Shown: in pieces, positions 9,861-54,980 of the stretch | How positions within the stretch are numbered: the first letter of the stretch is position 1 | Layout: the number at the start of each line of letters is the position of its first letter | DNA from: Victivallaceae bacterium | Lineage (GTDB): Bacteria; Verrucomicrobiota; Lentisphaeria; Victivallales; Victivallaceae | Reading direction: 5' to 3' | DNA length: 54,980 nt | Assembly (NCBI GenBank): GCA_024405735.1 | Contig: JAKSOF010000014.1 | Coordinates: forward strand, 1 to 54,980 | Program-made: the position numbers and the translations under genes | The notes under the pieces: generated by a model | Seen by the model: the letters and a program-made list of their open reading frames with translations, nothing else | Database searches by the model: none | Told to the model about the DNA's origin: nothing

Positions 9861-9896
9861 AGGGACTGTTGCAAATTTGCAACAGTCCCTTTTTTT
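9861..9896 (+). terminator. Terminator of the 1067-residue protein gene
   Basis: A perfect palindrome, AGGGACTGTTGCAAA with its complement (9861-9890), followed by a run of T to 9896. Its GACTGTTGC arm is shared with the terminator at 41507-41544. Confidence 0.9.
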
Positions 9897-9904
9897 CGCT
9901 CTCT

Positions 9905-9960
9905 GACGCGATGGGCGACACGCTCCATGCCAATGTTTGTCTCGCGGACGTCGCCGCGTC
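9905..9960 (+). repeat. Fragment of the mosaic intergenic repeat
   Basis: Bases 9910-9953 align with 41650-41693 (shared GATG-GCGACA, then GCCAATGTTTG, then ACGTCG). They also align with the reverse complements of 22053-22081 and 36559-36590. It lies between the terminator and the MFS gene promoter; the rest of 9897-9989 shows nothing else. Confidence 0.6.
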
Positions 9961-12916: not shown

Positions 12917-13084
12917 ATGGCTGCTAAAGTTGATCCCGAAAAGTGCTGCGGTTGCGAAACCTGCGTGAATGCCTGCCCCGTCGGCACCATCGCGATGCAG
13001 GACGGCAAGGCGGTCGTCGGTGCGGATTGCGTCGAATGCGGCGCCTGCGTCGGCGAATGCCCCGCTCAGGCGATTTCGCTCTAA
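12917..13084 (+). CDS. Short 2[4Fe-4S] ferredoxin
   Basis: A 55-residue clostridial-type ferredoxin, a soluble low-potential electron carrier. Both CxxCxxCxxxCP motifs are intact: Cys10, 13, 16, 20 (GCETCVNACP) and Cys38, 41, 44, 48 (ECGACVGECP), each followed by proline. An extra Cys11 lies next to the first ligand. AAGGAG precedes the ATG by a few bases. It has its own promoter and terminator, which suggests an abundant, independently expressed protein serving several redox partners such as pyruvate:ferredoxin oxidoreductase or hydrogenase, and so an anaerobic lifestyle (inference). Confidence 0.95.
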   Translation: MAAKVDPEKCCGCETCVNACPVGTIAMQDGKAVVGADCVECGACVGECPAQAISL

Positions 13085-20432: not shown

Positions 20433-21425
20433 ATGCGTTACTGTTTTGACGGTAAAAAATACGGCTTCTTTTTTCACTTCCTCAACAACGGAGATCCTAC
20501 TCTCCCCGAGGAAGCACGCGGGCAGGAGCATCCGATGCCGCCCGAAATGTGGGAGCGGTACGTCGCAGGTTTCGACGTTGAAAAAATCGCCGGACAACTC
20601 GCCGAGATCAATGCCGGATACGCCTTTTTGACAACGGGACAGAATTCCGGTTACTACTGCACCCCGAGCCGCGTCTACGACCGCGAAGTCGGGAAAGGTT
20701 TCTGCTCGCAACGCGACCTCATTGCCGACTTCGCCGACGCGCTCGCGCGGCACGGCATCGACGCCGGTGCCTATGTGACGACGCTCGCCCCCGGCAAGCC
20801 GCACGAGATCATCCGGAAACTTCACTGCACCCCCGCGTGGCCCGCAAAAGAGTGGGAATTGCAATACAACGACCTCGATTCCCCCGGCAAAAACGACCCC
20901 CGTCTTGAACATTTTCAGACCATCTGGAACGAAATGCAGCAGGAATGGTCCCTCCGCTGGGGCAAAAAAATCAAAGCGTGGTGGTGCGACGGCGCTTATT
21001 ATTCGGAATACATGTACGATTTCCCCGACGGGATCAACGGTCACACCCGTTGCCGCGCCCTCCGCGCCGGAAATCCCGACGCCGCAGTCGCCCTCAACGG
21101 CGGCGTCGACAATCCCCCGCACCGCAATTACACCGACAGTGACGAAGATTATCTCGCAGGCGAAATCAACGAACCGCAGGAACTCGTTTTCCCCACCGAT
21201 CCCCGCGATACCGCACTCAAACTGCATATCCTCACCTACGCCGGTACGGAATGGGGCGCCGCCCCCTTGCGTTTCACCGGACGCGAAATGGCGGAAATCA
21301 CCCGCCGCATCTTCGCTCACGGCGGCGTCACCACCTGGGATATTCCCTTCACGTTACAGGGCATCGCAGATGATGTGATGGATGTCTTACGGGATTTCAA
21401 ACGCGAGTTTGAGAAGAATAATTGA
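20433..21425 (+). CDS. GH29-like (alpha-L-fucosidase-fold) hydrolase
   Basis: A 330-residue cytoplasmic protein resembling the catalytic TIM barrel of alpha-L-fucosidases. KKYGFFFHFLNNGDP replaces the usual KFGMFIHWG opening, AEINAGYAFLTTGQNSGYYC matches the second strand, and KAWWCDGAYYSEYM carries the aspartate expected to be the GH29 nucleophile. It lacks the C-terminal beta-sandwich of classical GH29, so it is short. The ATG at 20433 is four bases after the TSCPD stop; the ribosome site is weak (AGGGA, about 15 bases away), suggesting translational coupling. Substrate specificity is not proven. Confidence 0.78.
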   Translation: MRYCFDGKKYGFFFHFLNNGDPTLPEEARGQEHPMPPEMWERYVAGFDVEKIAGQLAEINAGYAFLTTGQNSGYYCTPSRVYDREVGKGFCSQRDLIADFADALARHGIDAGAYVTTLAPGKPHEIIRKLHCTPAWPAKEWELQYNDLDSPGKNDPRLEHFQTIWNEMQQEWSLRWGKKIKAWWCDGAYYSEYMYDFPDGINGHTRCRALRAGNPDAAVALNGGVDNPPHRNYTDSDEDYLAGEINEPQELVFPTDPRDTALKLHILTYAGTEWGAAPLRFTGREMAEITRRIFAHGGVTTWDIPFTLQGIADDVMDVLRDFKREFEKNN

Positions 21426-22316
21426 CGCAATGGGAACAAGAGGGCGCTCACGCCGCGCCCTCTTGACTCCCCAAGCGCCCGCCAAGGGCGGGATCTGTAT
21501 CTGCCGCAGATATTTGCGGACTGACGCTTTTATCGTACTCCCAACGAATATCTCCGCAAATCTCCGCGGTCCGTCTATTTTGTTACTGCAAAAAGACCTG
21601 CGTCCCACGCGGGCTAATACTTCGCGCTTTCGCGCTTCGTCCGCCCGACTGCTTGTTTTTGCGGGGTACTTGGTGAGAAAAACAGGGAGTATGTAGAAAT
21701 ACCCGACGTACAAGGCGTACGGAGGGGACAACCGTTCTCTTACGGTTTTCCCCTCCATAACCTCCCCTTTTCCCGTGCGATCGCGATCAAAACGAATGTA
21801 GATATTCCCCTTTTTTACTTTTCATACGCCTGCGCTTCACTTCACCTTACAAACCGTGCCGCCGCTTTGCTATGACTCGTTTTGCCGCTTCGTTCGCTCG
21901 CGGCTACCGTGCTCGTCTACGATCGCTTGCGCAAACGACTGTTTGCGCATTTCCGCATTGCCGTTGGCAACGCGTAAAATCGCTCCCATCCGACTGCAAA
22001 TGAAGCGTATGTGATATTTTTCCCCGTTTTTTTCGCGGCGGTGTCCGCAAGTCAAACATTGGCGTGGGAGTATCGCACATCAGGCAGTCGGGCGGGCGGA
22101 GCATAAAGCGTAGCATTAGCCCGCGTGGAACGCAGGTCTTTTTGCAGTAACAAAATAGACGGACCGCAGAGATTTGCGGGGACAAATGTTTGAAGCGCGG
22201 ACAAAACGCTCAGCCCGCAAATATCTGCGGCAGGGTACAAAGTCCAGCCCGTGGCTGGTTGAGGGTGTCAAGAGGGGCGAAATCAGCCCCTCTTGCGCCG
22301 ACCGCGCAAGATATTC
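21426..22316. repeat. 890-bp noncoding element with two long inverted arms
   Basis: No gene is supported here. A left arm (about 21437-21660) and a right arm (about 22080-22296) are inverted copies of one another. They share a perfect 38-bp core (21566-21603 against 22130-22167), CCGCAGATATTTGCGG, and GCGGGCTAAT with flanking CCGCCCGACTGC. The arms enclose about 420 bp; the inner part near 21985-22050 is homologous, inverted, to 36380-36440. Outer hairpins at 21437-21463 and 22270-22294 (AAGAGGGGC arms) could stop transcription from both converging genes. No transposase is encoded. Confidence 0.85.
22270..22294 (-). terminator. Possible terminator of manA-argS
   Basis: A perfect 9-bp stem (22270-22278 pairs with 22286-22294) with a GAAATCA loop, 23 bp beyond the argS stop codon. 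It has only a weak T-rich tail, so it may be Rho-assisted. The same GGGCGAAATCAGCCC hairpin occurs at about 36604-36618. Confidence 0.5.
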
Positions 22317-24098
22317 TCACATCGCTTCCGGAACTTGGATCGTCAGCGTGTTGAGACCGTCGGTCAGGACTTTGCCGACGCACTCGGCGAGTGCCAGACG
22401 GGCGGCGGCAAGTTCGGGGGAGTCGGCGCTGACGACGGGGCATTCGCGGTAAAAGGAGTTAAAGGCTTTGGCGACGTCGAGGAGATATTCGACGACGCCG
22501 GAGCAATCGCGTTTGGCGGCGGCCTGGCGGAGCGTATTGCCGTAGAAGCTCAATTTGACGGCAAGTTTCTTTTCCGTCGGGTGGCAAAGAAGATTCCAGT
22601 CGACATTTTTTCCGGTCAGACCGCGTTCGGCGGCCTTGCGCCGGATGGAATTGACGCGGGTCGCGGCATACTGGACATAGGGTCCGGTATCGCCCTCGAA
22701 TTTCAGCGAAGCGGCGGGGTCGAAAGTCATCGTGGTTTTCGGATTGAATTTCAACAGCATGAACTTCAGCGCGCCGATGCCGATGATCTCGCCGCGGGTT
22801 TTCACTTCTTCCTCGCTCAAGGCGCCGTCGGCGCGGTTGCGGCATTCGGCGGCGGCGAGACCGGACATTTCGTCGAAAAGGTCGTCCGCATCGACAACGG
22901 TGCCTTCGCGGCTTTTCATCTTGCCGTTGGGCAGATTGACCATTCCGTAGGAAAGGTGAAAAAGTTTATCCGCCCAGGCGTAGCCGAGTTTTTTCATAAT
23001 GGTAAAGAGCATCTGGAAGTGGAGGATCTGCTCGTCGCCGACGACCCAGATCATCGTATCGGCGTGATAATCCTCATACTTGCGGAGCGTCGTACCCATA
23101 TCCTGCGTGATGTAAACGCTGGTACCGTCGCTGCGGAGCACGACTTTGGTGCCGAGTTTGCCGAGATCGCAGATGACGGCATTGTCGGCGCGGCGGGTAA
23201 AGACGCCCATCTCCAGTCCTTTGGAAACGATGTCTTTGCCGAGGAGATAAGTCTGGCTTTCCAGATAAGTGTGGTCGAAATGGATCCCCATGCGTTCATA
23301 GGTGACGGCGAATCCGGCAAAAACCCACGAATTCATCTTTTCCCAGAGCGCGCGGACTTCCTTGTTTCCGGTTTCCCAGTCGCGGAGCATTTTCTGCGCC
23401 GCGCTTCCAAGTTCGGTCTCGCCGAAAAGTTCGTCGTCGTCGCGGTCGGCGTATTCGGGATGCGCCGCGCGGAGCGCTTTCAATTCCTTGCTCAATTCTG
23501 CGTTGAATTTGACGTAGTAATCGCCGACGAGGTGATCGCCCTTGATGCCGCAGCTTTCGGGCGTTTCGCCGTTGCCGAAACGCTGATAAGCGAGCATTGA
23601 TTTGCAGATGTGGATGCCGCGGTCGTTGACGAGGTTGATCTCGACGACGTCGTGACCGACGCGCTTCAGAAGCGATGCGAGCGACATGCCGAGCGTATTG
23701 TTGCGCACGTGACCGAGGTGCTGGGGCTTGTTGGTGTTGGGGGCGGAATATTCGATCAGGACTTTGCCGCGTTCGGCATGGGGAAGCGCGACATTCCGGA
23801 GAAGCGCATCCATATCCGCGACTTCGGTTTCGCGCATCAAAGCGCCGGCTTTCATCGTGATGTTGACAAACGCCTTGACGATGTCAACAGCTTCAATATC
23901 CTCGTGGCGGCTCAAAAATTCGCCTGCCGCCTGTGCCGCCGCGACGGGGTTGCCGCAAAAGCGTGCGATTTTGAAACAATTGAGGGTAAAATCGCCATTC
24001 TGTCCTTCGGGACAGGGGTCGACCGCAAGGACGGCTTCGGCGGGATAGTTGGCAAAACGGCTGCGCAAATGCGCTTCGAGATCGGTGAGGAATTTCAT
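22317..24098 (-). CDS. argS: Arginyl-tRNA synthetase
   Basis: A 593-residue class I synthetase that charges tRNA-Arg. The HIGH-type motif is NKPQHLGHVRNN after the hallmark IEYSAPNTN; the KMSKS equivalent is KMKSREGTVVD. The N-terminal Add-1 domain (first 110 residues) and the C-terminal helical anticodon-binding domain ending in LLDVAKAFNSFYRECPV and LRQAAAKRDCSG are present. Full length for the bacterial form. It is 29 bp downstream of manA and shares its promoter. The ribosome site is weak (CAGG). Confidence 0.97.
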   Translation of the reverse strand: MKFLTDLEAHLRSRFANYPAEAVLAVDPCPEGQNGDFTLNCFKIARFCGNPVAAAQAAGEFLSRHEDIEAVDIVKAFVNITMKAGALMRETEVADMDALLRNVALPHAERGKVLIEYSAPNTNKPQHLGHVRNNTLGMSLASLLKRVGHDVVEINLVNDRGIHICKSMLAYQRFGNGETPESCGIKGDHLVGDYYVKFNAELSKELKALRAAHPEYADRDDDELFGETELGSAAQKMLRDWETGNKEVRALWEKMNSWVFAGFAVTYERMGIHFDHTYLESQTYLLGKDIVSKGLEMGVFTRRADNAVICDLGKLGTKVVLRSDGTSVYITQDMGTTLRKYEDYHADTMIWVVGDEQILHFQMLFTIMKKLGYAWADKLFHLSYGMVNLPNGKMKSREGTVVDADDLFDEMSGLAAAECRNRADGALSEEEVKTRGEIIGIGALKFMLLKFNPKTTMTFDPAASLKFEGDTGPYVQYAATRVNSIRRKAAERGLTGKNVDWNLLCHPTEKKLAVKLSFYGNTLRQAAAKRDCSGVVEYLLDVAKAFNSFYRECPVVSADSPELAAARLALAECVGKVLTDGLNTLTIQVPEAM

Positions 24099-36235: not shown

Positions 36236-36237
36236 GT

Positions 36238-36640
36238 CCACCCGTTACGCAACGGATGGGAATGAGAGGGCGCTCACGCCGCGTCCGTCTTCGCCCTGCG
36301 GGCTACGCCGTGACAAGCCGCGAGCCCGACTGCTTGATCTGCGTACCTGCCACGCAAAGCATAGTTTCGCAGACACCGCCGCAAAAGAAACCGAAAAAAC
36401 ACCACATACGCTTTATTTGCCGTCGGATGCGAGTCGGTTGCCGCCACCATTCTTTGACCGCGCAATACTTAAAACGTATTCCATTTGTGTAAAATTTCAA
36501 GTCTGACTTGAAAATTTACACAAACAGCAAGAAGTGTCGGAGTCTGCATATCCGCGAAACAAACATCGGCGCAGAGAGTTATCGCACATCTGGCAGTCGG
36601 GCGGGCGAAATCAGCCCCCTCTTGCGCCCATTTGTCAGCA
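36238..36640. repeat. Mosaic intergenic repeat between convergent genes
   Basis: No gene is supported. The start shares AGAGGGCGCTCACGCCGCG (about 36265-36283) with the left arm at about 21438. GGCTACGCCGTGACAAGCCGC (about 36300-36320) recurs at 41613-41633. 36380-36440 matches the reverse complement of 21985-22050. 36559-36608 matches 22053-22098 in the same orientation (TCGCACATC, then GGCAGTCGGGCGGGCG). A 41-bp palindrome lies in the middle. Confidence 0.8.
36484..36524. repeat. 41-bp near-perfect palindrome
   Basis: Two 20-bp arms (36484-36503 and 36505-36524) differ by one inner A/T step and flank a single T. It is AT-rich, with no T-tail beyond the stem. It may be a protein-binding site, cruciform or transcript-end hairpin. 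Confidence 0.8.
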
Positions 36641-40317: not shown

Positions 40318-40366
40318 AAAGCTCCTTTTTTTCTGCGGAGTTCCCGGGGTGAAAAAAAAGAGCTTC
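40318..40366 (-). promoter_or_regulatory. Expression platform of the TPP riboswitch (SD sequestration)
   Basis: The minus-strand segment AAGCTCTTTTTTTT (40366-40351 region) is nearly complementary to the AAAAAAAGGAGCTT that contains the thiC ribosome site (about 40333-40318). Separately, CACCCCGGG (40351-40343) is perfectly complementary to CCCGGGGTG in the aptamer 5' strand (40446-40438). These offer two alternative folds, so translational control is likely. Confidence 0.7.
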
Positions 40367-40456
40367 TTGACTTCCTTCGTCGGTATGATCCGCATCAGGT
40401 TCAAAGGGTCGGAATCTCGTCAATTCCTCTCAGCCCGCACCCCGGGCGCCCCTGTC
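40365..40456 (-). promoter_or_regulatory. TPP riboswitch (THI element)
   Basis: On the minus strand the conserved segments appear in order: CGGGGTGCGGGCTGAGA, then ACCCTTTGAACCTGAT, then GGATCATACCGACGAAGGAA. These are the THI-box pyrimidine and pyrophosphate helices. It lies between the promoter and thiC. Confidence 0.95.
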
Positions 40457-40473
40457 ATGATTGGTGTGCCTTT

Positions 40474-41490: not shown

Positions 41491-41506
41491 GCATCGGGCA
41501 AAATCC

Positions 41507-41544
41507 AAAGAGACTGTTGCAAAAATTGGCAACAGTCTCTTTTT
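41507..41544 (+). terminator. Terminator of the deacetylase gene
   Basis: Perfect 14-bp arms AAAGAGACTGTTGC and complement, an 8-nt loop, then T. The GACTGTTGC part equals that of the terminator at 9861-9896. Confidence 0.92.
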
Positions 41545-41559
41545 GTATCATCATATTTC

Positions 41560-41710
41560 GATGCAACGGGAGCACGAGGGCTAATGCTCCGCTTTACGCT
41601 TCCGTCTTCGCCAAGGCTACGCCGTGACAAGCCGCCCGTCCGACTGCCCGATGTGCGACATTCCCCGCGCCAATGTTTGGTCCGTTAACGTCGGTTTTGT
41701 CCGTAAAAGT
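41560..41710. repeat. Mosaic intergenic repeat, third site
   Basis: GGCTACGCCGTGACAAGCCGC (41613-41633) and the following CCGACTGC, GATGTGCGACA and GCCAATGTTTG match parts of the elements at 36.3 and 22.1 kb and the fragment at 9.9 kb. It lies between the convergent deacetylase and NSS genes. The remaining bases to 41754 show nothing. Confidence 0.75.
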
Positions 41711-41754
41711 CCGTTGAGGATGACAACGCAGTTGCTTTTTTTCAAGCGGAAGTT

Positions 41755-54670: not shown

Positions 54671-54694
54671 AAAACCGGTCGCAAAATCATCCGT

Positions 54695-54927
54695 GGCGCA
54701 CTCTCTCACGAACTGCACAGGAGATTTTAAGGGGGCAAGGGGGATTTTAGTAAAAATTAAAAAACTACCATACGCGAAGCCGCGAGTACCGGAGCGAAGC
54801 GAGGAACGGATGCGCGAGAGCGCGGGGGCTCCCCCGAAAATCGACCAAAGCCGCGAAGCGGGGCGCACCCTCTCATGGGTGCGCAGGAGATTTTAAGGGG
54901 GGTAAGGGGGATTTTAGTAAAAATTAA
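54695..54927. repeat. Direct repeats of about 46 bp with an inner hairpin
   Basis: 54715-54760 and 54881-54927 are near-identical direct repeats (AGGAGATTTTAAGGGGG, then AAGGGGGATTTTAGTAAAAA). Sequence before each also matches in part (GGCGCAC-CTCTCA). A perfect hairpin GCGCACCC/GGGTGCGC lies at 54863-54884. No gene is supported in 54671-54980. Confidence 0.85.
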
Positions 54928-54980
54928 GGCTCTGTCACAACAAATGGTTGATTTTTGACTAGAAATAGCGTATAATAAAC
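54928..54980 (+). mobile_element. Possible insertion-sequence left end with outward-facing promoter
   Basis: Directly after the second repeat the sequence changes to GGCTCTGTCACAAC, which looks like a transposon terminal inverted repeat. It is followed by an ideal promoter: TTGATT (54948-54953), a 17-bp spacer and TATAAT (54971-54976). Any transposase would lie beyond the window, so this is unproven. Confidence 0.4.

Follow-up and report, generated by a model that had tools for sequence, protein, structure and literature searches.

A probable family of interspersed, hairpin-rich mosaic repeats located behind genes in a Lentisphaeria genome

Results

Two probable repeat units fill a gap between convergent genes

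The 891 bases between two converging genes of a Victivallaceae bacterium very probably consist of two polar, hairpin-rich units, each lying directly behind a gene and each a copy of one non-autonomous interspersed mosaic repeat. The genome holds about 50 such dispersed, non-coding, hairpin-rich repeats, mostly just behind genes, and comparison of the copies suggests that they have spread by insertion, with nearly free shuffling of segments between them. The best reading of these data is a new interspersed mosaic repeat family, which resembles REP/BIME and BOX elements in its working and matches no family that we found.

The window, i.e., the whole stretch of DNA that was analyzed, comprises 54,980 nucleotides (contig JAKSOF010000014.1 of assembly GCA_024405735.1, positions 1 to 54,980; contig C6 of the genome designated G000 here). 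The genome is a Lentisphaeria MAG of 1.89 Mb in 26 contigs and is 97% complete. The best match of its ArgS among named proteins was from a Lentisphaeria MAG from sheep colon (73%), and the nearest named ArgS proteins were all from Lentisphaeria MAGs; the host is a gut bacterium of the Lentisphaeria. Among the congeners with ArgS compared, G008 was the closest (81%). The window also contains a TPP riboswitch on the minus strand (40355–40463; Rfam RF00059, 76 bits).

The element spans the entire interval between the two stop codons, the genes ending at 21425 and 22317 (Table 1). Its inverted arms (21422–21655 and 22081–22310) are 79% identical across approximately 220 bp and share the 38-base core GCGGTCCGTCTATTTTGTTACTGCAAAAAGACCTGCGT, which is the same in both. 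These arms had been described in a first-pass annotation of the sequence as a noncoding structure without a transposase, and we likewise recognized no gene within the 891 bases. The smaller palindrome that it pointed out, CCGCAGATATTTGCGG, is present and almost unchanged across 34 copies. However, the approximately 420 bp between the arms, which had been taken for unrelated sequence, are the repeat modules B1, B2, and E, continuing the argS-side copy. In comparison with shuffled sequences, the fold of the whole stretch had a z of −16 and that of one arm a z of −4.6, the latter being the fairer number because inverted arms alone guarantee a strong fold of the whole. The suggestion that the hairpins at the ends of the arms could stop transcription did not hold: they have no T-tracts and are therefore not standard intrinsic terminators, and 0 intrinsic terminators (GC-rich hairpin plus T-tract) were found in the window element, vs. 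1.7 expected from shuffles. No promoter-like sites were found within this element, and in an Rfam search of it no family exceeded the gathering score (the best match, with an E-value of 0.19, fell far below it).

Table 1. Coordinates of the repeat modules, other family members, and flanking genes in the window.
Feature	Position	Strand	Remarks
alpha-L-fucosidase-like gene	20433..21425	+	upstream of element
Whole repeat-filled gap	21426..22316	.	891 bases, between two convergent genes
Module S (type b), left unit	21421..21500	+	S motif GACGCAATGGGAACA; hairpin H1 21437-21465; hairpin H2 21478-21492
Module P, left unit	21502..21620	+	P1 21504-21519 pairs with P2 21554-21569; H3 21597-21613
Module B1	21672..21837	+	far end of argS-side unit
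Module B2	21896..21997	+	
Module E, argS-side unit	22024..22098	-	
Module P, argS-side unit	22113..22232	-	
Module S (type a), argS-side unit	22235..22308	-	with H1 and H2
argS, arginyl-tRNA synthetase	22317..24098	-	converging on element
Short family member	9861..9960	+	T, S motif, tail of E; behind gene
Member in another convergent gap	36236..36640	.	a shortened unit behind each gene; E+ 36319-36393, F+ 36396-36445, E- 36549-36607
Member behind polysaccharide deacetylase gene	41491..41735	+	T, S, E, X; E 41633-41688, X 41673-41735

Module anatomy and size of the family

The order of the modules is fixed. Read away from the gene end, it is an optional terminator T, S (hairpins H1 and H2), P (stem P1–P2 and hairpin H3), E, F, B2, and B1, with the B modules reversed relative to S-P-E within one unit, and a full polar unit measures up to about 720 bp. 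On this module map, the window element is a long unit behind argS (S-P-E-B2-B1, F not being detected at the threshold used) that meets a short S-P unit behind the fucosidase-like gene. Module T, a terminator-type hairpin with a T-run, lies outside the window element. The modules vary in content between copies, and truncation is common; F-B2-B1 is also found alone (loci L055, L058, and L061), and X takes the place of F-B after some E modules. Most copies are single-armed, and inverted pairs occur mainly where genes converge.

Several related sequences were observed alongside these units. Terminators of one sequence type (CTGTTGC...GCAACAG plus a T-run) lie behind many genes, including at 9861–9896 and 41505–41546 of the window, and also occur in G026; they themselves seem to be a spread module. 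In module X (L047, L053, L054, L056, L067, and L143), ACGGAC/GTCCGT is repeated many times in inverted orientation, and the module folds into a large hairpin of its own. A further repeat module (CTACCATACGCGAAGCCGCGAGTACCGGAG...), at 54671–54930 of the window, is common to L035, L040, L041, L045, L050, L059, and L065, and the contig ends shortly after it.

A BLAST search of the genome with the element gave 96 matches, and a covariance model of the core found 40 strong places (E below 1e-14), in agreement with the first-pass description of a structured repeat element of this genome; shorter motifs found additional members without the core. Among 34 congeners, G008 gave two matches to the same model and G026 gave three, all weak. 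Copies of the outer hairpins without the core are present in G026, plus one copy with a P-like stem. G001 likewise carries this outer pair but not the core, followed by other hairpins. The average identity of 34 aligned copies was 76% (range 61–97%), suggesting that the family is old and that some of its copies are recent. The exact core pattern had no match in a collection of named genomes, from which records very near the window are possibly absent. The element was also unmatched in phage and plasmid collections, and pattern matches in viral contigs were only 36–42 bases long. In open-licence papers we found no account of repeats of this kind from Lentisphaeria.

Conserved hairpins and reassorting segments

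In hairpins H1 and H2, changes on both sides that keep the pairing were present in 6 to 14 of the 34 copies, although the independent events are fewer than these counts because a few sequence types are common to many copies. The P1–P2 stem is kept in G008 (contig C101) and, with a different stem sequence, in G026, and this retention in other species is stronger support for the structure than the H1 and H2 counts. The pattern suggests that the hairpins are maintained by compensatory changes, between species too, and the selected form may be either RNA or single-stranded DNA.

We also compared the pairwise identities of the S, P, and K-H3 blocks over 561 pairs of copies. The correlation coefficients were 0.09, −0.07, and 0.15 (Mantel p = 0.03, 0.96, and 0.007, respectively), and every combination of S and K types occurs. 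Adjacent blocks thus carry almost no signal of common ancestry, and the segments therefore reassort. This points to an exchange of sequence among dispersed copies, by gene conversion, recombination, or template switching; saturation of the short variable blocks could be an additional cause of the weak correlations.

Placement relative to genes, and presence or absence of elements in relatives

Elements were present in 27 of 31 convergent gaps, 14 of 67 co-directional gaps, and 0 of 25 divergent gaps in the fetched stretches, with gaps of at least 60 nt as the background and genes called with a home-made program; the absolute fractions are inflated because most of these stretches were chosen for holding elements. 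The gene caller missed a small ferredoxin-like ORF with CxxCxxC motifs at 12917–13084 of the window, which is followed by an ordinary terminator hairpin and T-run, without a repeat element. Units began a median of 26 nt behind the stop codon, and of the 15 units in co-directional gaps, 12 began at the end of the upstream gene (p = 0.035). The exceptions were L054, which probably follows unannotated small ORFs, L035, and L059. Not every arm can be assigned to the end of a gene: the L035 copy, in a co-directional gap, carries inverted S sequences at both of its ends.

The gap between rpsO and ptsH is 998 nt long in G000 vs. 151 nt in G026, with the ptsH promoter region conserved. In G000 it holds the L035 insert, 852 bp with two inverted S-H1 ends in a co-directional setting, and in G026 it is an empty site of the kind that the first-pass annotation had proposed to look for; the empty gap in the relative supports insertion. 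The G008 rpsO likewise has no element behind it, and argS has an element in G000 and none in G008. Behind the EF-Ts gene the situation is the reverse: G008 has two tandem copies of the unit (contig C99; L295, 943–1480), both beginning TTTTTACGCAATGGGAGTTGAGGAGGCGC, and G000 has none intact, only a P1-like relic. Insertion is the simplest reading of this presence and absence, with deletion in relatives possible at any single site. The target-site duplication that had also been proposed as a check was not seen by eye at L035 or at the B-only copies, the right ends of which are ill defined.

Discussion

In the reading that we prefer, two units of a mosaic repeat meet behind argS and the fucosidase-like gene. 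Insertion behind stop codons and terminators would be tolerated because no promoter or operon is broken there, the single-stranded hairpins, S-H1 above all, may be recognized by a mobilizing enzyme, and exchange between copies, through gene conversion or template switching, would shuffle the segments. Selfish spread with conversion is the most likely driving process; insulation of convergent genes is a possible side effect, and such effects, or the shielding of mRNA 3′ ends, would be secondary. Against this reading stand the lack of any observed target-site duplication, the undefined right end, the lack of an enzyme among the families searched (Y1_Tnp and RVT_1), and a polarity that in co-directional gaps holds in only 12 of 15 cases.

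REP and BIME elements are extragenic palindromes that form mosaics near the 3′ ends of genes that converge or run in the same direction (PMC3733652, PMC2817692, PMC3116915). The repeats described here share with REP, BIME, and REPIN sequences their high copy number, their proximity to gene 3′ ends, and inverted pairs that form long hairpins. They could be REP- or REPIN-like elements that owed their mobility to a RAYT (Y1) transposase, the gene of which later decayed in the host species, a possibility that we regard as doubtful. S-H1 is a stable hairpin, L151 has a lone 54-base palindrome (S-H1-S′) between convergent genes, and REPs are similarly found near 3′ ends (PMC3733652). Family searches (Y1_Tnp and RVT_1) detected no intact Y1 transposase in the genome, only a broken 53-aa remnant, and an intact Y1 gene in G001. 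However, no element modules lie beside the remnant, so membership in REP/REPIN is not supported, and the presence of Y1 among congeners does not track the elements. Furthermore, no GTAG or CGTC tag was seen consistently beside S-H1 (34-copy alignment, by eye), and whereas a REP palindrome measures 20–40 bp, the unit here measures up to about 720 bp and has many hairpins, a fixed module order from the gene end, and reassorting modules.

The same searches detected a single gene for a reverse transcriptase (RVT_1, 114 bits; L252, 392–1816, on contig C10 of G000), which by its look is of the group II intron type. A group II intron was rejected as the identity of the element, with no modules beside this gene and no intron family match. 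Integron attC sites lie behind cassette genes, and an attC reading was considered for this reason; it was judged improbable, with housekeeping genes in both orientations and no attC core sites seen.

The first-pass annotation had called the element MITE-like. If it were a true MITE, the 891-bp piece would be one transposon with terminal inverted repeats of approximately 220 bp, moved in trans by a transposase, and the single arms would be solo remnants. Part of this description stands: the repeats resemble MITEs and RU/ERIC-type repeats (PMC10969869, PMC2759123) in being short, non-coding, dispersed, and non-autonomous with inverted sequence, and the two-ended L035 insert has its empty site in G026. 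Two inverted S ends are likewise present in L032, L047, and L048. In contrast, most copies have a single S end with no inverted counterpart, two-ended copies are almost confined to gaps between convergent genes, where each end adjoins a gene end, and the inverted S ends are 59 to 1868 bp apart with differing contents. No target duplication was found and no parent transposon is known. The arms in convergent gaps are better read as two units, and we consider a true MITE unlikely.

It is similarly improbable that the units are primarily functional RNA structures at 3′ ends (a terminator, a shield of the mRNA end, or a transcriptional insulator) that are kept by selection and spread secondarily. 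The location behind stop codons with its strong convergent-gap bias, the compensatory base changes within and between species, and the terminator-type hairpin of the optional module T would all fit such a function. However, the window element has no T-tract, most genes have no element, elements have been gained or lost at orthologous genes, and S-P-E often follows T and is therefore outside the mRNA.

A still less probable reading is a 3′-end cassette system, in which a dedicated process inserts strings of terminator plus hairpins behind other genes, with rapid reassortment of the segments, e.g., by hairpin-driven template switching or by copying via reverse-transcribed mRNA ends. If such a system exists, hairpin pairing would be kept while the sequence of the hairpins turns over between species. 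An assembly artefact or duplication can be dismissed with near certainty: several contigs start or end within elements, but the arms are not an assembly duplication because the core occurs 40 times in the genome, the two arms are 21% divergent, each copy is flanked by unique sequence of its own, and the unit is found in a comparable location in G008. Of the two outcomes that the first-pass annotation had named as refuting its reading, a lack of further copies and an assembly duplication of the arms, neither was observed.

Among known repeats, the BOX elements of Streptococcus are modular, over-represented between convergent genes, and predicted to form stem-loops (PMC3049150). The mosaic repeat described here shares with them dispersed modules that can be missing, variable size, the excess in convergent gaps, and stem-loops; by description and database searches, it differs in that its modules are substituted and shuffled, instead of forming tandem boxB arrays, and are GC-rich. 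The SPRITE element (PMC3049150), a repeat that resembles a terminator and is enriched near the 3′ ends of genes, is comparable to module T, but T is here merely one optional module, followed by long GC-rich hairpins.

These repeats form an apparently undescribed family from a poorly studied group, the Lentisphaeria, and the family explains several contig breaks of the MAG. It is unusual for neighboring blocks of approximately 50–90 bases in one dispersed repeat to have lost their linkage almost completely. Together, the reassortment and the empty site make the assembly of mosaic repeats such as BIMEs and BOX elements directly testable.
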